A stretch of 64,000 nt of DNA from Streptomyces sp. CNH099. Its GTDB lineage: Bacteria; Actinomycetota; Actinomycetes; Streptomycetales; Streptomycetaceae. Numbering within the stretch: the first letter of the stretch is position 1; each line of letters opens with the position of its first letter. The notes beneath the pieces are model-generated. The model had not been told where the DNA came from, made no database searches, and saw only the letters and a program-made list of their open reading frames with translations. Location of the stretch: NCBI GenBank assembly GCA_000514715.1, contig AZWL01000008.1, positions 124,001 to 188,000 on the forward strand, in the 5' to 3' direction. The position numbers and the translations under genes were made by a program. Shown piece by piece: positions 33,232 through 48,345 of the stretch.

Positions 33232-34101
33232 ATGGGCGAGGACGACCGCGAGCAGGCGAGGCGGCAGCGCAAGCCGGAAAAGAGAGCCAGGAGGGACAAG
33301 GACGCGGTACCACCCATCTGGGTCGCATACGCAAAGCTGCTCAAACTGCACCGCGAACGCGCGGGCATCACGCAGCCCCAACTTGCCGTCGCGGTGGGCT
33401 ACTCCTTCGACACGGTCGCCGCCATCGAACAAGCCAGACGCCCGGCGAAGCTGGCCTTCACGCGGGGCGCGGAGCGGGAACTCGACGCACAGGGCACGCT
33501 GATGGTGCTCCAGGATGACGTGGACCGGGCGAAGCTGCCGCAGTTCTTCCGGAACGTGGCGCTTCTGGAAGAAGAGGCGCTGAGCAGGTACGACTGGGAC
33601 CCGCTGCTGGTGCCGGGGCTGTTGCAGACGGAGGAGTACGCGCGCGCGTTGTTCTCGGCGCACTGTCCGCCGCTGTCGGAGGACGAGATCGAGCTGAGCG
33701 TGGAGGCCCGTCTCGCGCGGCAGAGGTTACTCACGCGGAAGAAGCCGGTGGAGCTGTGCTTCATCATCGGCGAGGCGGCGCTGCGCAACCCGGTGGGCGG
33801 GAAGCGAGTGCAGCGGGAGCAGTTGGAGGCGCTCGGGAAGCTTGCGGAGCTGCCGCATGTGGAGATCCAGGTGATGCCCTGGACCTGCGGCTTCCACCCC
33901 GGGCTCAACGGGCCCATGGTCGTCATGGAGACGGCGGAGCACGAAATGGTGGGGTACGTGGAATCGCAGGAGGCCGGGTTCGTCGTCTCCGACCCGGAAC
34001 AGGTCAGCGCGTTCGCTCACCGGTATGGAAAGATGCGCTCACTGGCACTGAACCCCGATGAATCGGCACGGTTCATCGGCCGCGTCGCAGGAGAGCTATG
34101 A
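33232..34101 (+). CDS. XRE-family regulator with DUF5753 (Scr2-like)
   Basis: A 289-residue DNA-binding protein. A charged leader is followed by a helix-turn-helix (about 40-95; RERAGITQPQLAVAVGYSFDTVAAIEQARRP). The DUF5753 domain then begins with LSRYDWDPLLVPGLLQTEEYARAL and contains LCFIIGEAALRNPVGG and VMPWTCGFHPGLNGP. Streptomyces has dozens of these, each paired with a DUF397 protein. Some pairs affect antibiotic production and behave like toxin-antitoxin modules. Its stop overlaps the DUF397 start by four bases. TTA codon 166 (33727-33729) suggests bldA dependence. Confidence 0.92.
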   Translation: MGEDDREQARRQRKPEKRARRDKDAVPPIWVAYAKLLKLHRERAGITQPQLAVAVGYSFDTVAAIEQARRPAKLAFTRGAERELDAQGTLMVLQDDVDRAKLPQFFRNVALLEEEALSRYDWDPLLVPGLLQTEEYARALFSAHCPPLSEDEIELSVEARLARQRLLTRKKPVELCFIIGEAALRNPVGGKRVQREQLEALGKLAELPHVEIQVMPWTCGFHPGLNGPMVVMETAEHEMVGYVESQEAGFVVSDPEQVSAFAHRYGKMRSLALNPDESARFIGRVAGEL

Positions 34102-34319
34102 ACGTGGATCAGGCTGCGGACACCAGCAGTTCGCATGAGTTGGCGTGGGTGAAGAGCAGCTACAGCGGATCGGGCGGCGGCAACTGCATAGAGGTGGCCG
34201 CGGCAGCAGAGTGCGTACATGTACGCGACTCCAAGGACCCCGCCGGCCCCGTCCTCACGGTCTCACCCGAGGCATGGACCTCGTTCCTCGCCTTCGCGGC
34301 CACCCAGGAGCCCGGCTGA
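34098..34319 (+). CDS. DUF397 protein (Scr1-like partner)
   Basis: A 73-residue protein with the DUF397 core: LAWVKSSYSGSGGGNCIEVA, then VHVRDSKDPAGPVLTVSPEAW, SFLAFA. It starts inside the end of the XRE gene (ATGA overlap), so translation is coupled. In studied pairs the DUF397 protein antagonises or partners the XRE protein. A hairpin terminator follows. Confidence 0.92.
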   Translation: MNVDQAADTSSSHELAWVKSSYSGSGGGNCIEVAAAAECVHVRDSKDPAGPVLTVSPEAWTSFLAFAATQEPG

Positions 34320-34335
34320 CGCCGTGAGTCGTGCG

Positions 34336-34367
34336 TGCCCTGCCCCGGACGCCCTCCGGGGCAAGGC
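34336..34367. terminator. Bidirectional hairpin terminator
   Basis: GCCCCGGA (34342-34349) pairs perfectly with TCCGGGGC (34355-34362), extended by partial pairing of TGCC/GGCA. It lies in the 64-base gap between the convergent DUF397 and HEPN genes. Confidence 0.7.
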
Positions 34368-34383
34368 ACCTCGGCGACATCCG

Positions 34384-35163
34384 TCAGCCCAGGACCTTGG
34401 CGATGGCCAGCGCGGTGCGCTCCAGCCAGTCCACGGCGTCGGTCACATCACCCTCGGTGATCGGGCGCCGCTGCTTGAGGTGGCCCTCGACGAGATCGGC
34501 GTCATGGGCGATCTTGTTGCGCCGCTCCATGATCTCGACATATCGCTTCTTCAACGTCTGGGCCGTGAGAGACGTGCGGCCGTGGTTCCACTCGTTCATC
34601 TGGACGGCGGCCTTGGCCCAGATGTCTTCCTCCGTCACCAGCTTCAACGCCTCGCTGATCTTGCGAGGGTTCTGAAGCGAGGCGTTGCTCCACTTCGCCT
34701 TCACATGCTCGGAGACGGCATCAGCAAGCGTCGTGTCACCGCGGCGGATCTCCTCGACCATGGCGAGCGGGAGCTCAAACCTCGTGAGCTGATACGGCAT
34801 GTCATCGCTGTCCTGCCCCGCCAGCACGGCGACGCGCCGGTACAGCTCTTCGTGGAACCAATGATCGATGGCGCTGACAGCCTGGACCCAGGCGGCCCGG
34901 TAGAAGTCACCGATGTCCAAGAGCGGCGACTCAAAGGCCGCCAGGTTCTTACCCGCGGTGATCATCTTCCGGGCGTAGTCGAGATTCGTCGTGAACGCCT
35001 GGAACTCGCGCGTCTGTGGGCGCTGAATGGGCAAACCGAGCACTCCCGTCTCACCGAGCTTCGGCGTCAAGATTTCCGGTGAGACGGTGAGCGGGTCAAC
35101 TCGATTGAGGATCCGCTGCCTCAGTTGGCTGGATCTCGTCCGTATCGGCCGTAACTTCGCCAC
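34384..35163 (-). CDS. HEPN-motif protein encoded at the end of the type I RM operon
   Basis: A 259-residue, mostly helical protein with no membrane segment. The stretch MERRNKIAHDADLVEG near residue 215 carries the R-x4-H motif of HEPN ribonucleases, followed by conserved acidic and basic helices. The start GTG 35163 gives a 68-base overlap with hsdM; GAGG lies six bases upstream of it. If that start is right, codon 4 is TTA (35152-35154). A later initiator cannot be excluded. HEPN proteins beside restriction genes are often RNA-cutting back-up effectors or antitoxin-controlled toxins. Function here is inferred, and no nucleotidyltransferase (MNT) antitoxin partner was seen. Confidence 0.68.
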   Translation of the reverse strand: MAKLRPIRTRSSQLRQRILNRVDPLTVSPEILTPKLGETGVLGLPIQRPQTREFQAFTTNLDYARKMITAGKNLAAFESPLLDIGDFYRAAWVQAVSAIDHWFHEELYRRVAVLAGQDSDDMPYQLTRFELPLAMVEEIRRGDTTLADAVSEHVKAKWSNASLQNPRKISEALKLVTEEDIWAKAAVQMNEWNHGRTSLTAQTLKKRYVEIMERRNKIAHDADLVEGHLKQRRPITEGDVTDAVDWLERTALAIAKVLG

Positions 35164-36676
35164 CGAGGGCCTCGGCGATGGCGGCGAACTCGCTCAGCGC
35201 CGCCTGAAGATCCTCCACGATCTCCTGGGCGATGACCTCCGGCGGCAGCAGGCTGTCCGCGTCCTCCAGGGCCGGGTCCTTCATCCAGGTGATATCGAGA
35301 TTGACCTTGTCACGGGCGATGAGTTCGTCGTAGGTGAAGCTCTTGAAGCGCTCATCGTCTGTCTCGACGCGCTCGGAGCGCGGCCGGCCGGGTCGGTAGG
35401 CCTCGACGAACTCGTCGAGGTCGGCTCGACGCAGCGGGTGCTGCTTGAGAGTGAAGTGCTTGGCGGTGCGGAAGTCGTAGACCCAGAGTGTGGTGGTGTT
35501 GGGCTGGCCGCCGCCGCGCGGGGGCTTCTTCTCGAAGAAGAGCACGTTGGCCTTGACCCCGCCGGCGTAGAAGATCCCGGTGGGCAGACGCAGGATGGTG
35601 TGCAGATCGAACTCGTCGAGGAGCCGCCGGCGGACCTTCTCTCCGGCACCGCCTTCGAAGAGGACGTTGTCGGGGAGGACCACCGCGGCACGGCCGTTCA
35701 TCTCCGTCAGCGACATGATGTGCTGGAGGAAGTTGAGCTGCTTGTTGGTGGTCGTGGCCCGGAAGTCCTCGCGCTCGTAGGAAATGTCCTCCCTCTCGGC
35801 CTTGCCGTCCGTGCCGATCACGGTGATGGCGGACTTCTTACCGAAGGGCGGGTTGGCGAGGACGAGCGAGGCATGGTCGCCCGGCTTGTCGGCGAGGGCG
35901 TCGCCGACCGTGATCAGACTCGGGCCGTCGGCATCGCCGATACCGTGCAGCAGCATGTTCATGGCGGCGAGGCGGGCCGTGCCGGTGACCAGCTCGTTGC
36001 CCCAGATCTTCCCTGAGCCGAGCGCGAGGCGCTGCTCTCGAGAGAGGTCCTGCATGTGGTGCTGGCGGATGTAGCTGTGGGCGGAGATGAGGAAGCCGCC
36101 GGTGCCGCACGCGGGGTCGGTGACGGTGTCGTCGGGCCGCGGTTGCATGACGTCGACCATCGCGTCGATGAGGGCGCGTGGGGTGAAGTACTGCCCTGCA
36201 CCGGTCTTGGTGTCCTCGGCACCCTTGGCAAGCAGCCCCTCGTAGGCGTCGCCCTTGAGGTCCGTGCCCTGGATCGTCCAGTCTTCCTTGCCGATCAGAT
36301 CGACGACCAGCTTCTCCAGGAGGGCGGGCTCGGTGATGCGGTTCTGGGACTTGGCGAAGATCGTGCCGAGGGTGGTCCCGGGGTTCTGGGCAAGCTCGGT
36401 GAGGACGTTGCGATAGTGGACTTCGAGATCAAGACCCCTCTTGGCTGCGAGCGACTTCCAGTCGTAGCCGGGAGGGACAACGGCTTTTGCATCGGCCTCG
36501 GTGAAGGGGTCGGAAGCGATCTCGTCCGCCATCTTCAGGAAGAGGAGGTACGAGAGTTGCTCCACATACTCAATAGTGGACAGCCCGTTGTCCCGGAGAA
36601 CGTTGCAGTAGTTCCAGAGCTTCGCAACGAGCGTATCGGTCTGCGCGCTGGTCTGGGCAGGGATCGTGGGTGTCAC
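35096..36676 (-). CDS. hsdM: Type I restriction-modification DNA methyltransferase subunit
   Basis: A 526-residue N6-adenine methyltransferase. The helical N-terminal domain (LWNYCNVLRDNGLSTIEYVEQLSYLLFLKM) precedes the SAM motif TDPACGTGGFLISA (about 185-198) and the catalytic VLANPPFGKKS motif (about 270-280). The C-terminal recognition-subunit contact region ends at 35096. It starts with a four-base overlap on hsdS and is the third gene of hsdR-hsdS-hsdM. Together with HsdS it methylates the host site; with HsdR it forms the restriction complex. Confidence 0.96.
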   Translation of the reverse strand: MTPTIPAQTSAQTDTLVAKLWNYCNVLRDNGLSTIEYVEQLSYLLFLKMADEIASDPFTEADAKAVVPPGYDWKSLAAKRGLDLEVHYRNVLTELAQNPGTTLGTIFAKSQNRITEPALLEKLVVDLIGKEDWTIQGTDLKGDAYEGLLAKGAEDTKTGAGQYFTPRALIDAMVDVMQPRPDDTVTDPACGTGGFLISAHSYIRQHHMQDLSREQRLALGSGKIWGNELVTGTARLAAMNMLLHGIGDADGPSLITVGDALADKPGDHASLVLANPPFGKKSAITVIGTDGKAEREDISYEREDFRATTTNKQLNFLQHIMSLTEMNGRAAVVLPDNVLFEGGAGEKVRRRLLDEFDLHTILRLPTGIFYAGGVKANVLFFEKKPPRGGGQPNTTTLWVYDFRTAKHFTLKQHPLRRADLDEFVEAYRPGRPRSERVETDDERFKSFTYDELIARDKVNLDITWMKDPALEDADSLLPPEVIAQEIVEDLQAALSEFAAIAEALGGEVTADTDEIQPTEAADPQSS

Positions 36677-38163
36677 AGCGGCAACTCCGTCTGAACGGCG
36701 GCACGGGGAGCAGGTGTCGGTGCTGGGGCAGGTGCCGACTGGACCGCTGCTCCTCTCTGGCGGGGCTGGCGGGACGGCTGAGACCGAGGGCTCTGAGCTT
36801 CGCGCTCGGCACGAATCCGGCCGAGCAAAACGGAGGCAGGCTCATCGGCGGGGTTTTGCGAGACGAGTCGCCCTGTGAAGGCTTTCTCAAAAAGTGCCTG
36901 TCGCAGTCGATCCGCCCGCCTCAAGGCAGCTTCGAGTTGAGCACGACAATGCCTGAGAGACACCGTAAGCTCATCGGCCTGATCCACGATAGCTCGTTGA
37001 GTCGCCAGCGGAGGCAAGGGGACAGGAATAGCCTTGACCTTAGATTTATTCAGCGCGGGTTGATTACCTCCAGAACTAGCCCTCCGCGATTCCAGGTAGC
37101 GCTGTTCGAAGACGAGATAAATATACTCGGGAAGAATCCGCGTCTCTGAGACACGAACTGAGGCACAGTTCTGATTATGCGACGCCTCAATGTCAAGGAT
37201 CGCAGCTTGACCACGCGTCTTGCCCTCGCCGATCATCGCGATCATGACGGTACCCGGCGGGTGAAGCCGCGTGCTCCGATTTCCGACAGCCCTTTCGCTG
37301 ATGTGCTCCCGGGTGCTCGAAATCCGATTGAAGCTCACCTCGCCACTTGAGACCCATGGGATCGACCCGGACCAGTTCTCTGGAACCTTTCGATTGGGGG
37401 TGGCACCGACATACACATCAAAGATGTCACCAACCGTCACCCAGAGCCATCCATCCGGGATCGGCCACGGTTGCTGGCTCTCAGAAAGTGGCTTGTGGCT
37501 ACTCGGGTTCCGCATCAAGTCCTGCGCGGTGCCCTCGTCCAGCGAGAGCGCAACCCCATCGCCCGACAAGAGGCGCGTAACGAGCGACTGCCGAAGGTTC
37601 ACTGCCCTCTGGACCGCAGAGCGCAACACTCCGCAGGATTTTTCGATGCGAGACAGATGGCCTTCGAGCACCTCGACGATACGAGTCTGCTCTGCCGCGG
37701 GCGGCACTGGGATAGAATTCTCGAAGACATCAGTGTCACGTACTGCCGGATAACTTACTCCCCGCTGCTTCGGGAAGAGCTGAGCTTCAAATTTCTGACT
37801 CTGCACGGCATAGAAAACGTAGCGTGCTTCCATGGCGTGATGCGGCCGGATTACCGCGAATCCAGTGGAAGCAATATGCCCTCCGAGTTCTGGAGCGACC
37901 TGAGCTACTTTCCTCAGATAAGGGCGCACGGTCGAGTAGAGCACATCACCGGGCATGATTACCTGCCGAGCCCTGCCGGGGGCCTCTGCAGATTCCATCC
38001 AGTCTGCGCTGGCAACCCGCCGATCCTCGCCACTTACAGAACTGATATCAACATATCTAAAGCGCGTCATGGGAAAATTCCCCCGACTCACTTTATCCAC
38101 TGGGATGCAAATTTCACTCAGCGGAACATTCTTCCACCCTGTAGGGGTGCCTCCGTCACTCAA
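36673..38163 (-). CDS. hsdS: Type I restriction-modification specificity subunit
   Basis: A 496-residue protein with the two-repeat HsdS layout. TRD1 is at about residues 8-160, then a helical spacer (VEVLEGHLSRIEKSC). TRD2 is at about 230-390 (PDGWLWVTVGDIFDVYVGATP), then a second helical spacer. The tail is a Pro/Ala/Gln-rich low-complexity stretch of about 50 residues. The two target domains decide the bipartite DNA site. Base composition in the TRDs falls visibly toward 50 percent GC against over 70 around it, a sign of horizontal exchange. Four-base overlaps with hsdR and hsdM. Confidence 0.95.
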   Translation of the reverse strand: MSDGGTPTGWKNVPLSEICIPVDKVSRGNFPMTRFRYVDISSVSGEDRRVASADWMESAEAPGRARQVIMPGDVLYSTVRPYLRKVAQVAPELGGHIASTGFAVIRPHHAMEARYVFYAVQSQKFEAQLFPKQRGVSYPAVRDTDVFENSIPVPPAAEQTRIVEVLEGHLSRIEKSCGVLRSAVQRAVNLRQSLVTRLLSGDGVALSLDEGTAQDLMRNPSSHKPLSESQQPWPIPDGWLWVTVGDIFDVYVGATPNRKVPENWSGSIPWVSSGEVSFNRISSTREHISERAVGNRSTRLHPPGTVMIAMIGEGKTRGQAAILDIEASHNQNCASVRVSETRILPEYIYLVFEQRYLESRRASSGGNQPALNKSKVKAIPVPLPPLATQRAIVDQADELTVSLRHCRAQLEAALRRADRLRQALFEKAFTGRLVSQNPADEPASVLLGRIRAEREAQSPRSQPSRQPRQRGAAVQSAPAPAPTPAPRAAVQTELPL

Positions 38164-41100
38164 GCCAGTTCTCGATTCAGCTCACTCACCAACGACCGCA
38201 CATCCCGCTCCGGGAACGCCGCCGCGAACCCGCGCCCGCCACCCCTCCCTCGGAAGGGCTCCACGTTGAAGTCCGCCGCCCCCACACCCGCGTCCTTCGC
38301 CACCACGTCCCGCACCGACCGCAGCCACCACAGCTGCTCCTCCGTGAAGTCCGCTCCCGCCTGCTGCTGCCGCAGCAGCCAGCCCTCGAAGCGTTCCTCC
38401 ACCGTTGCCCGGTACGGCCTCAGTTCTTCGTCCACGCCCAATTCATACCGGATCAGCGAGATCAAATCAGTCAGCCCCGCCTCGCGCCCCCCGTGCCCAA
38501 CCGCCGCACCCAGGTCCTCGTAGTACGTCCACAGCACCTGCGGTGTCCAGGCGTACTTCGGGCGATGGATCTCTGCTGCCAGCTCCTTCAGCGCAGCGTA
38601 CGCCTCTTCCGGCGAGACGGAACGCGGGCTGCTCATAGCGATGTTGACCGCAGCGATCCGGTCGCGCTCCTCCTTCAGGAGCCGACTCCACCTGCCGATC
38701 TCCTCCCTCGCCCGTTCCTCTCGCGGAACCTCCTCGACATCCTCAAGCCGCACTTCTGTGAACTCGTCTATGACATAGTCCTTGTCCCTGCGGATCTCAA
38801 GGATCTGCCGCCGCAGCTCCGGCAGCTCGGTCAGCGGGGCGATCGCCGCCTCGACCAGCCGCCGCGCCGCCGCCGGGCCGCCCTCCTCGCGCGCCCGCTC
38901 CTGGCGGTCGGGGTCGACCGCCTTCACGATCCCGCCCGCGATCTCAGAAAGCGTTCGCCCCCCGGCCGCCTGCGTCAACTGCTCCCGCTCGTCACCCGTG
39001 AGCTGCTGATTCAGCCGGGCCAGCCGACCCGCCAGAATCTCCGCTTCTGACGTGCTGATCGACTTCGTACCGGCCTTGTCCAGCAGCTTCGCCAGCGACA
39101 CCTGCCGCTCACTCGCCGGCACCAGCGGCTTGGCATCGACCAGCGGCGAGTTCGTAACGCCAACCGCGTCGATAAGGACGAAACGGTCCTTCCTCACACG
39201 GTCGTCCGCCTCCGGCGTGACCTCCTGCAGTTCGGTCGCGTCGATGGTCCGCGCGCCGCGCCCCTTCATCTGCTCGAAGAGCACCGCGCTCCGCACCTCA
39301 CGCAGGAAGATCACGCACTCCAGCGCCTTCACGTCCGTGCCCGTGGCGATCATGTCGACCGTCACGGCGACGCGCAGCCGCGGCGACGTTCGCAGCGCGC
39401 GGATCAGCTCGTCCGGGTCCTCACCCGCCTGACGGCTCTTGTAGGTGATCTTCTTGGCGAAGTCGTCGCCTCGACCGAAGACCTCCTTGACCTGGGCGAG
39501 CACATCCTCCGCGTGGTCCTCACCCACCGCGAAGATAAGCGTCTTCGGAAGATCCTGCCGATCTGGGAACCACCGCTTCCAGTTGTCCCGGTACGCGATG
39601 AGCACGGCGCGGATCTCGTCGATCGTGACCACCGACCGGCCGATCTGCCGCGTCGAGTACGTGAAGTCGTCGTCCAGCTCCTGGTAGCGCTGGGTCCGGG
39701 TCTTGCGGTCCTTGATCCGGACCGTCGTGCCCGACTCGATCGTCGCCGCGCCCTTCTCCCGCAGATCCGTCCGCATCCGGACAACGTCGAAGTCGACGTT
39801 CACGCCATCGGCGACTGCCTGCGGATACGTGTACTCGGACACGAGGTTGCGGCCGAAGAACCCGAGCGTCTGGAGCGTCGGAGTGGCGGTGAGGCCCACC
39901 AGATGGGCGTCGAAGTACTCCAGCACACCACGCCACAGACCGTAAATGGACCGATGGCACTCATCGACGACGATGAGATCGAAGGACTCAATCGGCACGG
40001 CCGGGTTGTACGTGACCTCGATGGGCCGGTCCGTCTCGTAGGTCTCCTCCAACGCCGCGCTGTCCGCAACCTCGTCCGCCGCGTCGTCGTCGATGAGCGT
40101 TTCGCCACGCAGCAGCGAGTACATCTTCTGGATCGTGCAGATGACGACCGCGGAGGTGTCCTTCAGCCCGGCGGCACCGAGCCGGTCCACGTTGTAGATG
40201 TCGGAGAGCTTTCGGCCGTCGTCAGGAGTCGTGTACTTCCGGAACTCGTCGAAAGCCTGCTTGCCCAGGTTGTTCCTGTCGACGAGGAAGAGCACGCGCC
40301 GGGCCTTGGCGTACTTCAGCAGCCTGTAGGTCTGGGCCACCGCGGTGAAAGTCTTTCCGGCTCCCGTGGCCATCTGGATCAGGGCGCGTGCCTGATCACG
40401 GGCAAGCGAGTCCTCAAGTCCGGTGATCGCGTCGACCTGGGCGAGGCGCAGCCCGTTCGGCTCCAGTGCCGGCAGTCGGCGAAGACCCGCACGCAGGGTC
40501 GGGGCATCCGGCGTTTCCTCGGCTCGCCGCATCCACGCCGAGACCGTCTCGGGCCGGTGGAAGGTGAAGACCTCGCGGGAGCGGGCGTCGGGGTCGAGGC
40601 GGTTCAGGAAGTACGTCTCGGCGCCGGTCGTCGCGTAGCGGAAGGCGAAGGGCTCGTCCTCCTGCCAGACGGCGAGTCGGTGCTCGGCGAGGACGCCGGC
40701 GGCGTAGCGGTCGTTCTGCTCGACGGCGCTACTGAGGTGGTCCCCCTCGCGCTTGGCCTCGACCACTCCAACGATCTTGCCGTCGACGTAGAGGACGTAG
40801 TCGGCCCGCCCGGTGGCCAGGGTGAACTCGCGCACCGCAACGCCTGTGCCGGCCGCGGGGTTGATCTCGTCCCGGTTCTGGACGATCCAGCCGGCGGCCT
40901 GGAGCATCTCGTCGATGGCCTCGCGGGCTTGCACCTCGTTGAGCGGCGCGGGCCGCTGCGCGCGGTGGATGATCGCGTCGCGGGCCTGGGCGTCGACCTT
41001 TCGAGGTGTGCGGCGCACCACGTCGTACGCGGCTTGCTGGGCGCTCCGCAGCTCCGTGATCTCCACGGTGAGCTGCTCGACCCGGGCACGCAGATCACGC

Positions 41101-41729
41101 TTGTTCGCCTGGGCGCTGGCGATGAGACGTTCCGCCTCCGCCCGTGCCCGGCGTTCCGCTTCGAGCTCGTCGGCCGATGCGGCAAGCCGCGTCCTGGCCT
41201 TGGTCAGGGCCTCACGGTGGCCGTCCAGAGCTTCGCGCAGCTCGGCGAGCTCGGCCGGATCGGTGATGTCCGCTGTGTCATCGGGATCGACCGGTGGAAC
41301 GAACTCGGCGACCGTACGCCGACCGGTGAGGGCGTCGTGGAACCAGAGGCCGAGCTTGTAGCACGTCTGAACGGCGGCGAGAGCGCGCGTCCTGTCGAAG
41401 AGGTGACTGTGCGCGGCGGCGTTGCGCTCACGCCGAAGCTGGTCGAAGTCGTCCCGGATGTCGGCGACGAGTACACCGGCACGTGAGAGAGCGTTCAAGC
41501 GGTCGATCTGCCGAGTGCCGTCGACACGCATGCCGGTACGGCTGATCAGTTCCTCGGCCAGCACTTCCCCGAACTGTCCCGACTGCACCAGGGACGAGTT
41601 GGGGTTCGAGACGACTACAGCCTCCGCCTGGGCGCCGTACAACGAGAGCAGCGGTTGATGCTGGAAGAGCAGCCCGAAGTTCGGGGATGCCTTGGCAACG
41701 TCGCGCAGCCGCTCGTCCAACTCGGTCAC
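38160..41729 (-). CDS. hsdR: Type I restriction endonuclease/translocase subunit (EcoEI-like)
   Basis: A 1189-residue motor and nuclease subunit. Order: an N-terminal DUF4145-like helical domain (about 1-130, with RRERNAAAHSHL), a coiled coil (about 165-230), a PD-(D/E)XK nuclease (GRADYVLYVDGKIVGVVEAKREG, about 310-330), and an SF2 helicase core (QMATGAGKTFTA; DECH box in VVDECHRSIYG; SRQAGEDPDELI and GRGARTID). An EcoEI-type C-terminal domain binds the methylase. The start is GTG 41729, whose RBS is poor; TTG 41720 is an alternative with GGGAG better spaced. First gene of the operon. Confidence 0.95.
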   Translation of the reverse strand: MTELDERLRDVAKASPNFGLLFQHQPLLSLYGAQAEAVVVSNPNSSLVQSGQFGEVLAEELISRTGMRVDGTRQIDRLNALSRAGVLVADIRDDFDQLRRERNAAAHSHLFDRTRALAAVQTCYKLGLWFHDALTGRRTVAEFVPPVDPDDTADITDPAELAELREALDGHREALTKARTRLAASADELEAERRARAEAERLIASAQANKRDLRARVEQLTVEITELRSAQQAAYDVVRRTPRKVDAQARDAIIHRAQRPAPLNEVQAREAIDEMLQAAGWIVQNRDEINPAAGTGVAVREFTLATGRADYVLYVDGKIVGVVEAKREGDHLSSAVEQNDRYAAGVLAEHRLAVWQEDEPFAFRYATTGAETYFLNRLDPDARSREVFTFHRPETVSAWMRRAEETPDAPTLRAGLRRLPALEPNGLRLAQVDAITGLEDSLARDQARALIQMATGAGKTFTAVAQTYRLLKYAKARRVLFLVDRNNLGKQAFDEFRKYTTPDDGRKLSDIYNVDRLGAAGLKDTSAVVICTIQKMYSLLRGETLIDDDAADEVADSAALEETYETDRPIEVTYNPAVPIESFDLIVVDECHRSIYGLWRGVLEYFDAHLVGLTATPTLQTLGFFGRNLVSEYTYPQAVADGVNVDFDVVRMRTDLREKGAATIESGTTVRIKDRKTRTQRYQELDDDFTYSTRQIGRSVVTIDEIRAVLIAYRDNWKRWFPDRQDLPKTLIFAVGEDHAEDVLAQVKEVFGRGDDFAKKITYKSRQAGEDPDELIRALRTSPRLRVAVTVDMIATGTDVKALECVIFLREVRSAVLFEQMKGRGARTIDATELQEVTPEADDRVRKDRFVLIDAVGVTNSPLVDAKPLVPASERQVSLAKLLDKAGTKSISTSEAEILAGRLARLNQQLTGDEREQLTQAAGGRTLSEIAGGIVKAVDPDRQERAREEGGPAAARRLVEAAIAPLTELPELRRQILEIRRDKDYVIDEFTEVRLEDVEEVPREERAREEIGRWSRLLKEERDRIAAVNIAMSSPRSVSPEEAYAALKELAAEIHRPKYAWTPQVLWTYYEDLGAAVGHGGREAGLTDLISLIRYELGVDEELRPYRATVEERFEGWLLRQQQAGADFTEEQLWWLRSVRDVVAKDAGVGAADFNVEPFRGRGGGRGFAAAFPERDVRSLVSELNRELA

Positions 41730-41745
41730 TCCCTGCTCTGCCGCA

Positions 41746-41770
41746 CACCACGTGGTGGGGGCCGAGTTTA
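41746..41770 (-). promoter_or_regulatory. Palindrome and -10-like box upstream of hsdR
   Basis: CACCACGTGGTG (41746-41757) is a perfect 12-base palindrome 17 bases before the hsdR start. On the minus strand TAAACT (41765-41770) lies just upstream, so the palindrome would fall at the transcription start. No good -35 was seen. Restriction operons often have controller sites here, but no C-protein gene is present nearby. Confidence 0.4.
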
Positions 41771-41817
41771 CGCAAGCCGGTCAGTCAGGGGCGGCGATGC
41801 CGTACATCCCGTAGCCG

Positions 41818-42819
41818 TCAGTCGTGGCCCGTGCCGGGGCGGCGGGCCGTTTCCGCCGGGTGCTCCTTCTCCTCCGCGTCGATGCGGCGGGAGGCGCGGA
41901 GGCTGGTGATCGTCGTGACGACCAGGACGCCGCCGATGACGCTCAGGGACACCGCCGTGCTGATCTCGGGGACGTGGACCCCGGACTCGTGCAGGGCGTG
42001 GAGCACCAGCTTCACGCCGATGAAGCCGAGGATGACCGACAGGCCGTACGAGAGGTGGACCAGCTTCTTGAGCAGGCCGCCGATCAGGAAGTACAGCTGC
42101 CGCAGGCCCATCAACGCGAAGGCGTTGGCCGTGAAGACGATGTACGGGTCCTGGGTGAGACCGAAGATCGCGGGGATGGAGTCCAGCGCGAAGAGCAGGT
42201 CCGTCGTGCCGATGGCCAGCATGACGACCAGCATCGGCGTGATCAGCCGCTTGCCGTTCTCGGTGATGACCAGCTTCGTGCCGTGGTACGTGTCCGTGGC
42301 CGCGAAGCGCCGCTCGACGGCCTTGAGCAGCCGGTTCTCCTCCCACTCCCCTTCCTCCTCCTCGTTCCTGGCCTCCTCGATGAGCTTCCAGGCGGTGTAG
42401 ATGAGGAAGGCGCCGAAGATGTAGAAGACCCAGGAGAACGACGCGATCAGCGCGGCGCCCGCGGCGATGAAGGCCGCGCGCATCACCAGCGCGATGAGGA
42501 CGCCGACCATGAGCACGCGGGCCTGGTACTGCGGGGGGACCGCGAACTTGCCCATGATGAGCACGAAGACGAAGAGGTTGTCGACGCTCAGGGACTTCTC
42601 GGTGACGTAGCCGGCGAAGAACTCGCCGGACGCCTGGCCGCCGCCCCAGATCCACAGCCCGATGCCGAAGAGCCCGGCGAGGACGATCCAGATGACCGTC
42701 CAGGTGCCGGCTTCCCGCAGCGACACCTCGTGGGGTTTCCGGCCGACGAAGAAGTCGGTGCCGATCAGTGCGCACAGGCCCACGATCGTGAGCACCCACA
42801 GGGTCAGCGATACGTCCAC
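41818..42819 (-). CDS. terC: TerC-family integral membrane protein
   Basis: A 333-residue protein with about nine membrane helices. The TerC signatures GTDFFVGRKPHEVSLREA, EKSLSVDNLFVFVLIM and GTTDLLFALDSIPAIFG (with acidic in-membrane residues thought to handle metal ions) are complete. A cytoplasmic acidic loop (EEARNEEEEGEWEEN) is near residue 160. Family members aid tellurite resistance or load metal (manganese) onto secreted proteins. The start is GTG 42819 with GGAGGA ahead; the frame upstream lies in the promoter. It shares the locus with terD-type genes. Confidence 0.94.
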   Translation of the reverse strand: MDVSLTLWVLTIVGLCALIGTDFFVGRKPHEVSLREAGTWTVIWIVLAGLFGIGLWIWGGGQASGEFFAGYVTEKSLSVDNLFVFVLIMGKFAVPPQYQARVLMVGVLIALVMRAAFIAAGAALIASFSWVFYIFGAFLIYTAWKLIEEARNEEEEGEWEENRLLKAVERRFAATDTYHGTKLVITENGKRLITPMLVVMLAIGTTDLLFALDSIPAIFGLTQDPYIVFTANAFALMGLRQLYFLIGGLLKKLVHLSYGLSVILGFIGVKLVLHALHESGVHVPEISTAVSLSVIGGVLVVTTITSLRASRRIDAEEKEHPAETARRPGTGHD

Positions 42820-42847
42820 TCGTCCTCCGCGGCTGGTCCGGCACTTG

Positions 42848-42876
42848 ACTGTATAGAACGAGCCAATAGAAGGCAA
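42848..42876 (-). promoter_or_regulatory. Promoter of terC
   Basis: On the minus strand TTGCCT (42871-42876), 17 bases, TACAGT (42848-42853), about 29 bases ahead of the GTG start. The surrounding 60 bases are unusually AT-rich for this genome. Confidence 0.6.
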
Positions 42877-42934
42877 AATGTAGATCAAATACCGAGGTCA
42901 CCGGGGTCGCCGGCCGTCGACGGGCGCACACGCG

Positions 42935-42967
42935 ACCGGCCCGCAGGCAACGTGCCTGCGGGCCGGT
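42935..42967 (-). terminator. Perfect 15-pair hairpin terminator
   Basis: ACCGGCCCGCAGGCA (42935-42949) and TGCCTGCGGGCCGGT (42953-42967) pair without a mismatch around a three-base loop, 32 bases past the stop of the TerD-fusion gene. It insulates terC from read-through. Confidence 0.85.
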
Positions 42968-42998
42968 GCGGCGTGGGCGGGTCAGCCGCCGGGGGCGG

Positions 42999-45062
42999 TC
43001 AGCGGCGCAGGGCGCGGCGGGCCGCCGCGACCTGGGCCAGCACCTGTTCCAGCACCCGGCTGCCCCGGGGGGCGCGGGCCGGCTCGTACGTCCAGGCGTG
43101 GCCGATCCAGGGGTCGGCCAGGTGGTCGTCCGGGGTGGGGGTGAGGCGCAGCATGCCGCGCCAGAGCGGGTCCAGCAGCGGGCCGTAGCCCTTCGCGTCC
43201 TCGCGGTCGGCGACGATCAGCAGGTGCACCCCGACCGAGGGGCCCTCGTCGGCGAGGTACCGCAGCTGGTTGATGGCGCGGTCGTCGAAGCCGTGCGGAA
43301 AGTCGTTGACCACGAGGAGCTGCTGCGCCGGGTCGAGGTCCGGGGGCAGCGCGTCGGCGGCGCCGCTGCGCAGGGCCATCTGCACCAGGTCGATGCGCTC
43401 GGTCAGCCGGGTGAGGGTGTCGGTGACGGCCGCGGCGCCCTTCGGCGGCGGCTCGGCGAGGACGCCGGAGTGGAGCAGCGGGGTGAGCGCCGCGGTGGCG
43501 GTGCCGCCCGGGTCGATGAAGTGGACGTTGAACTCGCCCGCCGGGTGTACCGACAGCAGCCGTGCGGCGTGCGCCACGGCGGTGTCGAGCGCCAGCGCGC
43601 GCCGCTCCGCGGAGTCCGGGAAGGCGCGCCCCGGGTCGGCGTCGAGCGCGCCCGGGCCGAGCGGGGACGCGCCGCTGTCCACCCACAGGCCGCGCTCCAG
43701 CGGCAGCCGTACGAGCAGCGGAATGCGCAGCTCCGTGTGCTCGGGGAGGTGGAGGTCGCCCAGGCGCAGGGCCATCGGGGCGTCCTCGGGCACCTCGTAC
43801 TCGTGCCACACCGGGCTGGCCCAGGAGGCGTACGCGGGCGGCAGCGCGGGCTCGACGACCCCGGCCTCGGCGACGAGCTGCCCGAGGTCGCGGTCGAGGA
43901 CCTCGCGCGCCCGGTCGACCAGGGTGGAGTGGCGGGCGAGCACCTCGGCGCGCGCCGAGTCGGCGACGGAGCCCATGCGGGCGCGCGGGTCGGCGAGGAG
44001 CCGGTCCAGCTCGCGGTCCATCCGGGAGTCGGCGAAGTCGACGGCGCTGCGGTACGCGGCGACGGTGCGGGCCAGGTCCTCGAACATGGCCCAGACCTGG
44101 TTGTAGAGCCGCTCCGCCATGCTCCAGCCGGCGGCGTCGCCGGCGACCGGCTCGGCGGACCCGGCGGCGGAGCGGTCGGACTGCGGCGGTACGCCACCGC
44201 CGCCCGCGGGGGCGGACCCGGCGCCCTGCCGTGCTCCCCCCGCGGTGCTGCCGGCTCCGACGCCGGGGGGCGGTGCGGACGGCGGCGCGGCGGCGGAGGC
44301 GCGCGGCGCACCGGACGTGCCCGACGTACCGGACGTGCCGGAACCGCCGTTCGCCGCGCCCGCGGAGCCCGCCGCGGCGGCGCGGCGCGGGTGGCGGTAG
44401 TCGACGGGACCGGCCTGTGCCTGCCGCCCCTCCGCCGGCGGCTGCGCGCGGCGGGCGCCCGCCCCGGTCTGCTGGCCGGCGGCCGGCGGCGCCGGGGCGA
44501 CGGCGCGGGCCAGCCCCTCGGCCACGGCCCGTTCGATGTCCGCGGCGAGCTGCTGCGCCTCCGGCAGGCCCTGGTCCGCGAGCATGGCGGCGAGCCCGCC
44601 CGCGTACCCCTGGCCCACGGCTCTGATCTTCCAGGCGTCGCCCCGCCGGTACAGCTCCACGGCGGTGACCGCCGACTCGCTGTCCAGGCCGGTGATGACG
44701 AACCGCGCGATCGCCGTGCCGTCGAGGCCGGTGACGGCCACCGACGGCGGTGCGATGGCGCCGAAGCTCCGCGGCCCCGGCACGCCGGCGGGCAGCGCCA
44801 GCAGCACGTGCACGCGCTCCACGTCCGGCGGCATCACGTCCAGGTCCACCGCCAGCCGGTGTGCCACCGCTGCCTGGCCGGGCACTTCGAGGCCCGGCAG
44901 CTGCGGCGCACCGGGGTGCGCGATCCGGCCCGGGTCGCTGACCCGGCCGTCCTCTCCGCCCAGCGTGGCGCCCGGCGTCACCGGGCTCCCCGCCGAAATC
45001 CTGATCTCCACCCGGGTCTGCGGCAGCGGATGATTCTGCCCGCGGACCAACTCGGCCGTCAT
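42999..45062 (-). CDS. TerD-domain protein fused to a degenerate FtsK/HerA-like domain
   Basis: A 687-residue cytosolic protein. Residues 1-190 are a TerD-like beta sandwich (VEIRISAGSPVTPG; VDLDVMPPDVERVHVLLAL; AVTAVELYRRGDAWKIRAVGQGY). A Pro/Gly/Ala/Thr-rich linker of about 110 residues follows. The C-terminal half (about 300-687) has a helical part, then strand patterns like FtsK/HerA ATPases: LLVVNDFPHGFDDRAINQLR in the Walker B position and GPSVGVHLLIVADRED after it. No Walker A lysine is seen, so ATP use is doubtful. It follows terD by 74 bases. TerD proteins bind calcium and act in membrane stress complexes. Confidence 0.8.
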   Translation of the reverse strand: MTAELVRGQNHPLPQTRVEIRISAGSPVTPGATLGGEDGRVSDPGRIAHPGAPQLPGLEVPGQAAVAHRLAVDLDVMPPDVERVHVLLALPAGVPGPRSFGAIAPPSVAVTGLDGTAIARFVITGLDSESAVTAVELYRRGDAWKIRAVGQGYAGGLAAMLADQGLPEAQQLAADIERAVAEGLARAVAPAPPAAGQQTGAGARRAQPPAEGRQAQAGPVDYRHPRRAAAAGSAGAANGGSGTSGTSGTSGAPRASAAAPPSAPPPGVGAGSTAGGARQGAGSAPAGGGGVPPQSDRSAAGSAEPVAGDAAGWSMAERLYNQVWAMFEDLARTVAAYRSAVDFADSRMDRELDRLLADPRARMGSVADSARAEVLARHSTLVDRAREVLDRDLGQLVAEAGVVEPALPPAYASWASPVWHEYEVPEDAPMALRLGDLHLPEHTELRIPLLVRLPLERGLWVDSGASPLGPGALDADPGRAFPDSAERRALALDTAVAHAARLLSVHPAGEFNVHFIDPGGTATAALTPLLHSGVLAEPPPKGAAAVTDTLTRLTERIDLVQMALRSGAADALPPDLDPAQQLLVVNDFPHGFDDRAINQLRYLADEGPSVGVHLLIVADREDAKGYGPLLDPLWRGMLRLTPTPDDHLADPWIGHAWTYEPARAPRGSRVLEQVLAQVAAARRALRR

Positions 45063-45136
45063 GCGGCCCTCCCCTGCACTCGCTGCGGCCGTCGACGTCG
45101 CGTCATGCCTCGGAAACCGGTCGCCCCGTCCCCGCC

Positions 45137-45715
45137 TCAGAGAAGCGGCTGGATCGACGGCATGAGGTCCTGGAAGGTGCGGCCGTTCGCCGGCGAGCCG
45201 AGGGCGGTCATGCCCCAGCCGGATCCCGTCCGGTGCACCTTGGCCATGATCTGGGCGGTGTACGTGCCGCCGCCGGTGAGGGTGTAGCGCGCCAGCTCCT
45301 GGCCGTTGGACTCGTCCACCAGCCGGCAGAAGGCGTTCTGCACCTCCGCGAAGGTCTGGCCGGTGAAGGAGTTCACGGTGAAGACGATCTGGTCGATGTG
45401 CACCGGTACGCGCTGCAGGTCGACCAGGACCGACTCGTCGTCGCCGCCCTGGCCGGCGCCGCCGACGAGGTTGTCACCGGTGTGCCGCACCGAGCCGTCG
45501 TCGCTCACGAGGTGCTGGAAGAAGACGACGTCCACGGGCTGCTTGTCGGCGAAGAGCACGGCGGAGGCGTCGAGGTCGATCTCGCGCGTCCGCTTTCCGA
45601 AGAGGCCGCGGCGTTCGGCGGCCTGCCAGCCCAGCCCCATGCGTACCGCGTTGAGGGAGCCGCCATCGGACTTCTGCAGGCTGATGGCCTGACCCTTGGT
45701 CAAGTTGATCGACAC
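45137..45715 (-). CDS. terD: TerD-family calcium-binding stress protein
   Basis: A 192-residue stand-alone TerD domain. Landmarks are VSINLTKGQAISLQKSDG at the start, MGLGWQAA, EIDLDASAVLFA, RHTGDNLVGGAGQGGDDESVLVDL (with the DD calcium ligands) and FTVNSFTGQTFAEVQNAFCRL. The start is GTG 45715 with AGGAGGGGA ahead; the longer frame to 45898 lies in leader sequence. TerD proteins bind two calcium ions with a beta-sandwich and are tied to tellurite, oxidative and differentiation stress. It is followed by the TerD-FtsK-like fusion and terC. Confidence 0.95.
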   Translation of the reverse strand: MSINLTKGQAISLQKSDGGSLNAVRMGLGWQAAERRGLFGKRTREIDLDASAVLFADKQPVDVVFFQHLVSDDGSVRHTGDNLVGGAGQGGDDESVLVDLQRVPVHIDQIVFTVNSFTGQTFAEVQNAFCRLVDESNGQELARYTLTGGGTYTAQIMAKVHRTGSGWGMTALGSPANGRTFQDLMPSIQPLL

Positions 45716-45907
45716 GCTTACGTTCCCCTCCTGTCCGAAACACGCCATGACCGGCGCGTTGCCCCGCACATTACGCAGGACAGCGGCCCTGTGCTCCCCC
45801 CGGGGGAGGATTTGTGGCTCTCCTGCTACACAGCACCGGTTGTGCGCTCCCGGCGGCCGCGCTCCGCGCACGCCCGGCGGGCGCCCGGCCGCCCGCACGA
45901 CCCGGTG

Positions 45908-48046
45908 CTACGACAGCCCCGCCTCCTTCATCTGCCGCAGCTCCTTCTTCATCTCCGCCACCTCGTCCCGCAGCCGGGCGGCCACCTCGAACTGCAGCTC
46001 CGCGGCCGCGGCCCGCATCCGGGCGGTCATGTCCTCGATCTGCGCGGCGAGGTCGGCGGCGGGCGTCTCGGTGGGCGCGCTCCCGGCGGCGGCGCCCCTG
46101 CCGGGCCGGCCGGCGGGCTTCGTCTGCTGCCGCAGCTCCGGCACCGGCGCCTTCGCCGGGGCCTCGGGCTGCGTGGCCCGGTAGCCCGTGCCGAGCAGCG
46201 CCTCGGTGTCGACCTCCTCGCGGGCGATCTGCGCGACGATGTCGTTGATCTTCTTACGCAGGGGTTGCGGGTCGATCCCGTGTTCGTCGTTGTACGCGAT
46301 CTGCTTGGCGCGGCGCCGGTTGGTCTCGTCGATCGCCTTCTCCATGCCCGGCGTGATCTTGTCCGCGTACATGTGCACCTGGCCGGAGACGTTGCGCGCG
46401 GCGCGGCCGATGGTCTGGATGAGCGACGTGCCCGACCGGAGGAAGCCCTCCTTGTCCGCGTCGAGGATGGCGACGAGCGAGACCTCGGGCAGGTCCAGGC
46501 CCTCGCGCAGCAGGTTGATGCCGACCAGTACGTCGAACTCGCCGGCGCGCAGCTCGCGCAGCAGCTCGACGCGGCGCAGCGTGTCGACGTCGCTGTGCAG
46601 GTAGCGCACCTGGATGCCCAGCTCCAGGAAGTAGTCGGTGAGGTCCTCGGCCATCTTCTTCGTGAGCGTGGTGACGAGGACGCGTTCGTCCTTCTCCGCG
46701 CGCGTGCGGATCTCGTGCACCAGGTCGTCGATCTGGCCCTCGGTCGGCTTGACGACGACCTCGGGGTCGACGAGCCCGGTGGGCCGGATGATCTGCTCCA
46801 CGACGCCGTCGCCGCGGGACAGCTCGTACGGCCCGGGGGTGGCGGACAGGTAGACGGTCTGGCCGATGCGCTCCAGGAACTCCTCCCACTTCAGCGGGCG
46901 GTTGTCCAGCGCGGACGGCAGCCGGAAGCCGTGGTCGACGAGGGTGCGCTTGCGGGAGGCGTCGCCCTCGTACATGGCGCCGATCTGGGGGACGGTGACG
47001 TGCGACTCGTCGATGACGAGGACGAAGTCCTCCGGGAAGTAGTCCAGCAGGGTGTGCGGTGGAGAGCCGGTCTCGCGGCCGTCCATGTGCAGCGAGTAGT
47101 TCTCGACGCCCGAGCAGGTGCCGATCTGCTGGAGCATCTCCAGGTCGTACGTCGTGCGCATGCGCAGCCGCTGCGCCTCCAGCAGCTTGCCCTGCTTCTC
47201 CAGCGCCCCCAGCTGCTCGCCCAGCTCGGTCTCGATGCCGGCGACGGCCTTGGCCATGCGCTCGGGGCCGGCGATGTAGTGGGAGGCGGGGAAGACGTAC
47301 AGCGCGTCGTCCTCGCTCATCACCTCGCCGGTCAGCGGGTGGAGCGTGGACAGGGCCTCGATCTCGTCCCCGAACATCTCGATGCGGACGGCCAGTTCCT
47401 CGTAGACCGGGAAGATCTCGACGGTGTCGCCGCGGACCCGGAACGTGCCGCGCGTGAACGCCTGGTCGTTGCGCGTGTACTGGATGTCGACGAAGCGGCG
47501 CAGCAGCTGGTCCCGGTCGATCTCCTCGCCGACCTTCAGCGGCACCATGCGGTCGACGTACTCCTGCGGCGTGCCCAGGCCGTAGATGCAGGAGACGGAG
47601 GCGACCACGATGACGTCGCGGCGGGTGAGCAGCGAGTTCGTCGCGGAGTGGCGCAGGCGCTCCACCTCCTCGTTGATCGAGGAGTCCTTCTCGATGTACG
47701 TGTCCGTCTGGGGGACGTACGCCTCGGGCTGGTAGTAGTCGTAGTACGAGACGAAGTACTCCACGGCGTTGTTCGGCAGCAGCTCGCGGAACTCGTTCGC
47801 CAGCTGGGCCGCCAGCGTCTTGTTGGGCGCGAGGACCAGCGTGGGCCGCTGGAGGCGCTCGACCATCCAGGCCGTCGTCGCCGACTTGCCCGTGCCGGTG
47901 GCGCCGAGCAGCACGACGTCCCGCTCGCCCGCTCTGATCCGCCGTTCCAGCTCGTCGATGGCGGCGGGCTGGTCACCGCTGGGCTGGTACGGGCTGACGA
48001 CCTCGAAGGGCGCCGTGGTGCGTTCGATGTCTGTGACGGGCCGCAT
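45908..48046 (-). CDS. uvrB: UvrABC excinuclease helicase subunit B
   Basis: A 712-residue damage-verification helicase. Walker A is [13 protein letters not shown] (near 49-61). The beta-hairpin stretch [16 protein letters not shown] box [12 protein letters not shown], motif [11 protein letters not shown] and the C-terminal UVR motif ([24 protein letters not shown]) are all present. The start is ATG 48046; the longer frame is outside the conserved protein. A Pro/Ala/Gly-rich insert precedes the UVR motif, as in other Streptomyces. No LexA box was recognised in the 300-base upstream region. Confidence 0.97.
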
Positions 48047-48345
48047 GGTCCCACCGTACGACCCGCCACCGACAACGCGGATCGGATCGCCCGTGCGCCC
48101 TCGCCGACCTGGCCCAATACCGCAGGCCCCGTTCCGCCGACCAGATGATTTCCAGCCGGGCCGGCGGCGGCCGGGTGCGGGCAGTAAGCGCTTCCCCAAG
48201 CCTCTCACCTGCGTCGACGGGAGTGCGCCGGCGTTCACCGCGCCGATATCGGCGTTCAATCTCTGTCCATCCCCGGCCTCGTACTCTGTCGCCTGCCACT
48301 GGGACCCTGCGGCGACAAGTGATCACCTCTAGCCGAGGAGACTGC
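48047..48345. other. Divergent intergenic region between uvrB and the GDPD gene
   Basis: 299 bases, without an ORF of coding character or a convincing hairpin. It must hold both promoters, but no clear -35/-10 pair, SOS box or other known operator was found. Confidence 0.4.

Follow-up and report, generated by a model that had tools for sequence, protein, structure and literature searches.

A HEPN-domain gene linked to one actinomycete clade of type I restriction systems carries a leader predicted to mute translation from read-through RNA

INTRODUCTION

At least 16 clades of HEPN proteins are linked to restriction-modification (R-M) systems, and these proteins have been proposed to act as a second, RNA-level and suicidal layer of defence that is held in check by the R-M subunits (Anantharaman et al. 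2013, PMC3710099). This study concerns a HEPN gene located downstream of a type I restriction operon (hsdR-hsdS-hsdM) in a 64,000-nucleotide stretch of Streptomyces sp. CNH099 (i.e. the window, positions 124,001 to 188,000 of contig AZWL01000008.1). As in the surveyed cases, the gene lies in a conserved R-M neighbourhood and a self-directed RNA-level layer can be proposed; the portions of the survey covered here (PMC3710099) do not speak of a leader element such as that of the HEPN gene in the window. A first-pass annotation of the window, made from the sequence alone, had suggested an RNA-cutting layer triggered on failure of the DNA layer and possibly controlled by the R-M complex itself.

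Other described systems share single traits with this locus. PrrC joins HEPN to an ABC-type nucleoside triphosphatase (NTPase) (PMC3710099). The PrrC-PrrI system (type Ic) has a HEPN ribonuclease (RNase) gene beside hsdMSR, as in the window, and serves as a functional model; the window protein differs as a HEPN domain alone of 216 residues, without fusion to an ABC-type NTPase, and is linked to Hsd proteins of a different type. MntA-HepT (HEPN-MNT) shares the HEPN fold with R-x4-H and is among the best structural matches of the window protein. In agreement with the first-pass annotation, no MNT gene was detected with Pfam among the flanking genes scanned, which comprise part of the open reading frames (ORFs) of the window. 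Ribo L-PSP-HEPN is entered in the survey with a ParB operon and a fusion to endoRNase L-PSP only, not with R-M (PMC3710099); the corresponding Pfam profile (PF18735, HEPN_RiboL-PSP) is common to the family studied here, with the window protein below the curated cut-off. DUF4145-HsdR fusions are represented by the HsdR of the window, which starts with such a HEPN domain (RN-x3-H), and the operon additionally encodes the separate HEPN protein.

A precedent for the leader is found in the transposase genes of IS10 and IS50, where read-through RNA folds over the ribosome-binding site and RNA from the gene's own promoter lacks the upstream arm. The same insulation scheme is predicted here for a defence-linked RNase gene rather than a transposase. 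R-M-linked HEPN proteins were proposed as an RNA layer in 2013; literature searches, judged by title and abstract, found no description of the present HEPN branch in association with type I systems or of such a leader.

RESULTS

Fold, motif and start of the HEPN protein

Structure prediction for the HEPN protein produced an all-helical model of high confidence (mean predicted local distance difference test, pLDDT, 93.3; predicted template modelling score, pTM, 0.87). Ranks 1–16 of 50 rows in a VIA-align comparison were HEPN domains with Z of 10.0 to 7.9, including 5yep and 1jog, which we take to be HEPN, although helical bundles below a Z of ~13 can match through arrangement alone. A Foldseek search with the model also counts against the assignment, with no match at E ≤ 0.001. 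On balance the predicted model favours the HEPN fold of the first-pass annotation. In an alignment of 32 members, including the window protein and extending to identities with it of 26%, R171, R172, I175, H177 and D180 were invariant (216-residue numbering) and N173 was nearly so; all 32 members contain R172-x4-H177, in line with the R-x4-6-H pattern of the HEPN superfamily. HEPN_RiboL-PSP was matched by 32/32 members at E ≤ 0.1 and was the sole Pfam domain matched in the 216-residue protein. The score of the window protein (20.6 bits) is below the curated cut-off of 28.4 bits, which is exceeded by two distant relatives (30.8 in L066 and 29.4 in L025). PADLOC has no model for this protein, NCBIfam produced one chance-level match only (E 0.094) and sequence searches of the PDB produced no HEPN relative. 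We infer RNase activity and consider the protein most likely to be an RNase effector of this restriction clade.

Relatives on mobile elements were all weak (≤30% identical) and came from one plasmid record, two phage records and five viral contigs. One is an unannotated frame of phage Pf1 (L121:3001–3543; AY324828.1, 381–923, minus strand) with 28% identity and the motif RRNSIVH, which adjoins the ParA-like Orf317. Distant relatives of ~390–410 residues (L021, L022 and L023) have a C-terminal extension without a Pfam match at E ≤ 1. A diverged relative (28%) is present as inverted copies ~8.5 kb from each chromosome end in genome G091 (contig C1; L013 and L014).

The ORF encoding RRNKIAH is present downstream of hsdM, as first annotated, with a longest frame of 34384–35163 on the minus strand that can be extended to GTG 35163. 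Its length of 259 residues was not upheld, as the relatives with inspected 5' ends begin ~43 codons later, at about codon 44 of this ORF (MA.PQTREF). By this comparison the start is most likely TTG at 35034, giving 216 residues, and GGGAG is located 8 nt upstream. The previously reported overlap of up to 68 bases between this ORF and hsdM is rejected as an artefact of a start codon placed too far upstream; the likely start is separated from the hsdM stop by 61 bp.

Linkage to one hsdM clade

A scan of named genomes for HEPN returned 19 loci. In 16 of these (L027–L042; Streptomyces, Micromonospora, Saccharothrix and Dactylosporangium) hsdM directly precedes HEPN (i.e. the adjacent layout), with hsdR and hsdS also seen in 15/16 and the contig of L037 beginning at hsdM. 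HEPN is some kilobases from hsdM in L044 and L045 (i.e. layout 2). In a genus sample of 392 Streptomyces genomes, HEPN matches were detected in 29 genomes (24 at ≥50% identity) and HsdM matches at E ≤ 1e-150 in 38 (22 at ≥73% identity). HEPN was present in 18/22 genomes with this hsdM clade as compared to 6/370 others (Fisher 1.8e-22, uncorrected for relatedness) and in 17/21 when the window's own genome was left out. HEPN matches were absent from all 16 genomes whose HsdM was of lower identity only (52–65%).

Both genes were on one contig in 17/18 pairs, 65 bp to 8.8 kb apart, and on different contigs in G261. Five of the 17 pairs were adjacent, one was spaced by 0.5 kb, one by 2.3 kb with an intervening transposase gene, and ten by 3.3 to 8.8 kb. 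The genes that separate HEPN from hsdM in layout 2 include nSTAND-WD40 (L016) and Uma2 (L017). The more distant G605 keeps the order hsdR-hsdS-hsdM-HEPN-Fic (HEPN 37–38% and HsdM 66% identity), indicating that the arrangement reaches beyond close relatives. The Fic/DOC family gene that follows the operon in G605 (L138:3605–4696, minus strand) is a possible third layer. A Septu-like PtuA-PtuB pair (PADLOC E 1.5e-183 and 2.1e-89) is located between hsdM and HEPN in L044 (5790–7939, plus strand).

Several genomes weigh against HEPN as an accessory effector of this clade. In a class sample of 394 genomes drawn from the class, HsdM at ≥73% identity was present in five genomes and HEPN in 1/5, the window's own. 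Within this sample, G645 and G530 contain hsdR, hsdS and hsdM without HEPN, and G708 and G590 keep hsdS-hsdM with neither a full hsdR nor HEPN; the operon also occurs without HEPN in G058, G344, G318 and G042 of the genus sample. Conversely, G057, G223 and L043 have an intact HEPN gene but no complete restriction system. The first-pass annotation had proposed a search for the gene order in other genomes, with absence of HEPN from most related operons as the adverse outcome: a conserved partnership was found and a universal pairing was not, as operons without HEPN exist, and absence is the minority state in the genus sample (4/22) and the majority state in the class sample (4/5).

Decay, co-evolution and selection

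In genomes lacking this hsdM, 5/7 HEPN copies at ≥50% identity were broken, versus 0/19 copies with an hsdM partner (the 18 above and G605; Fisher 0.0003; 0.0007 when L043 is counted as a further intact copy). The broken copies have a stop (G357 and G668), are split between frames (G313) or are fragments (G238 and G276); the G668 locus, from the class sample, also contains an ambiguous base and the G276 assembly is only 81% complete. In L043 (7855–10000, plus strand; Marinitenerispora) HEPN and its leader are intact, although a deletion truncates hsdR after ~536 residues and has taken most of hsdM.

Protein distances were compared for 20 non-redundant loci. HEPN distances tracked those of HsdM (r 0.84) and HsdR (r 0.85), with 0/2000 permutations as high for each, and not those of HsdS (r 0.08; 289/2000 permutations as high); joint descent with the host may contribute to the correlations with HsdM and HsdR. 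In L104, HsdM is 87% and HEPN 56% identical, a sign in the sequences that HEPN may be exchangeable. The ratio of non-synonymous to synonymous substitution rates (dN/dS) for HEPN was 0.01–0.18 in 14/16 comparisons (0.13–0.18 versus seven adjacent-layout relatives and 0.01–0.14 in seven closer pairs) and 0.34–0.40 versus L110 and L104. The HEPN gene is under purifying selection.

Three other explanations of the protein can be set against these data. An independent defence or toxin gene, riding the same defence islands without a functional tie to restriction, would fit layout 2, in which other genes (Septu PtuAB in L044, for example) and distances of up to 8.8 kb separate HEPN from hsdM, the solitary HEPN genes of G057 and G223, the operons without HEPN and the low count in the class sample. 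We regard this as distinctly unlikely, as co-occurrence in the genus sample is exclusive to one hsdM clade, HEPN decays alongside hsdM loss, the diverged G605 retains direct adjacency and HEPN distances follow HsdM and HsdR, although vertical descent alone could contribute to the last of these. A non-catalytic role, in which the protein would regulate the restriction genes by binding RNA or protein, has a basis in HEPN domains described as lacking catalysis in the survey (PMC3710099) and is highly improbable here: no part of the family is more constant than its catalytic-type residues, and HEPN matches HsdM in its low dN/dS. The third is strict PrrC-like latency, in which HEPN would always be made and would be inactive through contact with the Hsd proteins until released by phage anti-restriction proteins, with the hairpin of minor importance. 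PrrC-PrrI is a precedent, reversible inhibition of linked HEPN RNases by R-M subunits is part of the 2013 proposal as set out in the survey (PMC3710099), breakage of HEPN where hsdM is gone is expected if loss of a restrainer is harmful, and HEPN evolves with HsdM and HsdR but not HsdS. Yet G057, G223 and L043 keep HEPN with an RRNxIxH-type motif in the absence of a complete Hsd set (L043 retains the HsdR N-terminus), and the ATPase/sensor domain of PrrC is missing here; we consider such latency unlikely.

A leader hairpin over the Shine-Dalgarno

The RNA between hsdM and HEPN is predicted to form a hairpin whose 3' arm includes the Shine-Dalgarno (Table 1). The window leader had a folding energy of −31 kcal/mol (z −2.74) and single folds of eight leaders had z from −1.05 to −4.46. 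In L030 and L031, an hsdM-HEPN gap of 75 bp is implied from HsdM length. Pairing was examined in 16 adjacent-layout leaders. Paired cells amounted to 92.0% versus 85.9% in shuffled alignments, both-side changes to 14 cells versus 5.3, and the covariation score was 0.308 versus 0.194, with 0/500 shuffles as high; slid versions of the arms paired at 39.5–48.5% only. The covariation term of RNAalifold was modest (−0.9 kcal/mol). When arms were swapped between leaders of the adjacent layout (n = 12), own arms gave −29.2 and swapped arms −23.8 kcal/mol (0/5000), and swapped arms were as good as own arms in 0/5000 trials with all 29 leaders; in this test the leaders of L016, L017, L015 and L044 were cut too short.

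These 16 leaders were used to train a covariance model, with which 36 loci (670,688 bases) were scanned. Of six matches at E ≤ 1, two were training members and four were HEPN leaders, from L120, L109, L117 and L016. These four untrained, layout-2 leaders were found at E 0.014–0.68 with no other untrained place in the 36 loci, in which the remaining untrained HEPN leaders were missed. In the window genome, the model detected its own leader at E 1.6e-10 and the next match at 0.54. Rfam had no match at E ≤ 1 over positions 34000–42500. A tie between the hairpin and the DNA target of the system was rejected on inspection because HsdS diverges widely while the leaders stay alike.

Promoter-like elements and predicted accessibility

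The TTG at the head of the leader is invariant among the 16 adjacent-layout leaders, as are A26 and T30, five apart in TANNNT fashion. The pattern TTG-N-xAxxxT with a spacing of 16–19 was present in 33/39 HEPN leaders versus 24/731 control upstream regions, and in 27/31 reduced leaders with 0.8 expected by shuffling; as the pattern was sought after the alignment had been seen, its counts are descriptive. The p-values for leaders and controls are approximate, because the control upstream regions derive from crude longest-ORF starts and the loci contain near-duplicates. If the promoter is real, transcription from it would begin near 35063, beyond the 5' arm. The mean unpaired probability of the Shine-Dalgarno region was 0.18 for read-through RNA, versus 0.39 for controls, and 0.44 for RNA from the gene's own promoter, versus 0.43 for controls. 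Read-through hsdRSM messages are thus predicted to be silent for HEPN and own-promoter messages are not. The HEPN leader shares with IS10 and IS50 a predicted hairpin over the Shine-Dalgarno in read-through RNA, here accompanied by covariation, and looks built to keep the gene silent when its neighbours are transcribed.

Other results speak against an insulating leader with its own promoter. A generic sigma-70 scan does not report the leader promoter, and the −10 agrees with TATAAT at 3/6 positions. Taken by itself, the layout-2 mca group (n = 12) showed no significant preference for own arms in the arm-swap test (313/5000). A scan of 121 Streptomyces genomes with stricter filters detected only the window leader at E ≤ 0.01, though several of these genomes have a layout-2 HEPN. 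There is no hairpin at L039 (10-bp gap), L040 (30 bp) or G605 (21 bp).

The repeat could alternatively be a DNA operator, or a terminator lacking U residues between hsdM and HEPN, instead of a translational hairpin. It adjoins a promoter-like element, a terminator would affect read-through similarly, and actinomycete terminators without a U-tract exist. This explanation is somewhat unlikely: the Shine-Dalgarno is always covered by the 3' arm, wobble-type changes (C-G to U-G) preserve pairing, a terminator scan found none at the leader, and arms ~20–30 nt apart are long for a simple dimer site.

Proposed mechanism

We give an even chance to HEPN being an accessory effector of one actinomycete type I restriction clade with its own, read-through-insulated expression cassette. 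HsdRSM would mark self DNA and cut foreign DNA, and HEPN would be a metal-independent endoribonuclease with the active site RRNxIxH. When restriction is evaded or overwhelmed, HEPN may cut host and/or phage RNA and halt growth or phage production. In messages from upstream (i.e. hsdRSM or other island genes) the hairpin would form over the Shine-Dalgarno and little protein would be made; with the −10 in the hairpin loop, the gene's own RNA would begin past the 5' arm and leave the Shine-Dalgarno free. As the hairpin would mute read-through and the gene's own promoter would escape the hairpin, the RNase dose could be set apart from operon transcription. Hsd subunits might restrain HEPN in addition to the leader. 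The suggestion that control comes from the R-M complex itself needs revision, as the conserved leader also occurs away from hsdM and HEPN is intact without a complete system, both of which point to at least one further control.

A bolder form of the proposal is possible and is held tentatively: HEPN would be a self-contained, read-through-proof toxin cassette on type I systems, silent unless its own promoter fires, for instance on restriction failure, and the operon would then contain two HEPN domains, HsdR-fused and free, as possible partners.

The idea put forward in 2013, that an RNA layer backs up a DNA layer, has in this family a widespread and concrete actinomycete case for testing, with natural contrasts already available in genomes (i.e. 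the presence or absence of HEPN beside the system, and the decay of HEPN copies on loss of the restriction genes). The leader suggests how a possible suicide enzyme could sit beside a transcribed defence operon without harm from read-through, and control of this type is invisible to searches for coding genes.

The restriction operon and neighbouring genes

All three hsd genes are open frames with type I Pfam families above curated cut-offs (Table 1), and PADLOC calls them MTase_I, Specificity_I and REase_I. The overlaps of hsdR with hsdS and of hsdS with hsdM are exactly 4 bases each by ORF coordinates, as first annotated. From its sequence this is a complete-looking type I restriction system, with methylation and cleavage as predicted activities. 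HsdM has NPPF at residue 275. Walker A and DECH motifs are visible in HsdR, and its GRADYVLY-to-VVEAK stretch fits, in our reading, a PD-(D/E)xK nuclease.

Table 1. Coordinates of the HEPN gene, its leader elements and the restriction operon in the window
Feature	Position	Strand	Basis or remark
HEPN-domain protein, 216 aa, TTG start, RRNKIAH at residues 171–177	34384..35034	−	start by comparison with relatives
3' arm of predicted leader hairpin, CGGTGAGACGGGAG	35043..35056	−	includes Shine-Dalgarno GGGAG, 35043–35047
−10-like element AAATCT/AATCTT, in hairpin loop	35069..35075	−	only A2 and T6 conserved
5' arm of predicted leader hairpin, CTCACCGTCTCACCG, one bulge	35077..35091	−	fold, covariation, arm-swap test
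−35-like element TTGACC of HEPN leader	35094..35099	−	overlaps hsdM stop TGA (35096–35098)
hsdM, modification subunit, 526 aa	35096..36676	−	N6_Mtase and HsdM_N above Pfam cut-off
hsdS, specificity subunit, 496 aa, TTG start	36673..38163	−	Methylase_S in two stretches, above Pfam cut-off
hsdR, type I restriction subunit, 1189 aa	38160..41729	−	ResIII, HSDR_N and EcoEI_R_C above Pfam cut-off
HsdR N-terminus, ~140 residues, second HEPN-like domain (DUF4145)	within 41130–41729	−	Pfam and predicted fold

DUF4145 was detected at E ≤ 0.1 in 22/22 homologous HsdR N-termini and scored 24.2 bits in the first 200 residues of the window HsdR (cut-off 23.1). The best PDB row for the predicted model of this N-terminus was the HEPN protein 2hsb (Z 13.2). 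The linked operons that were examined keep its motif, R102-NAAA-H107 (RN-x3-H), as RNxAAH; G042 (L114), whose operon lacks the separate HEPN gene, has GNEAVH at this place and has lost the motif. Sequence kinship between the HEPN protein and the HsdR N-terminus was rejected, as the profile comparison was not significant (probability 2%).

An XRE (DUF5753) and DUF397 gene pair (33232–34319, plus strand) is convergent with HEPN, and similar pairs are located near HEPN in many relatives. This pair was considered as a dedicated antitoxin and rejected: it is 32–44% identical between loci versus 50–80% for HEPN, is absent near HEPN in ~10 loci of the named scan, and DUF397 has 45 matches in the window genome. 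Being diverged, often absent and present in many copies, the pair is treated as island content. The region upstream of hsdRSM (41818–48259, minus strand) contains genes for TerC, two TerD-domain proteins and UvrB.

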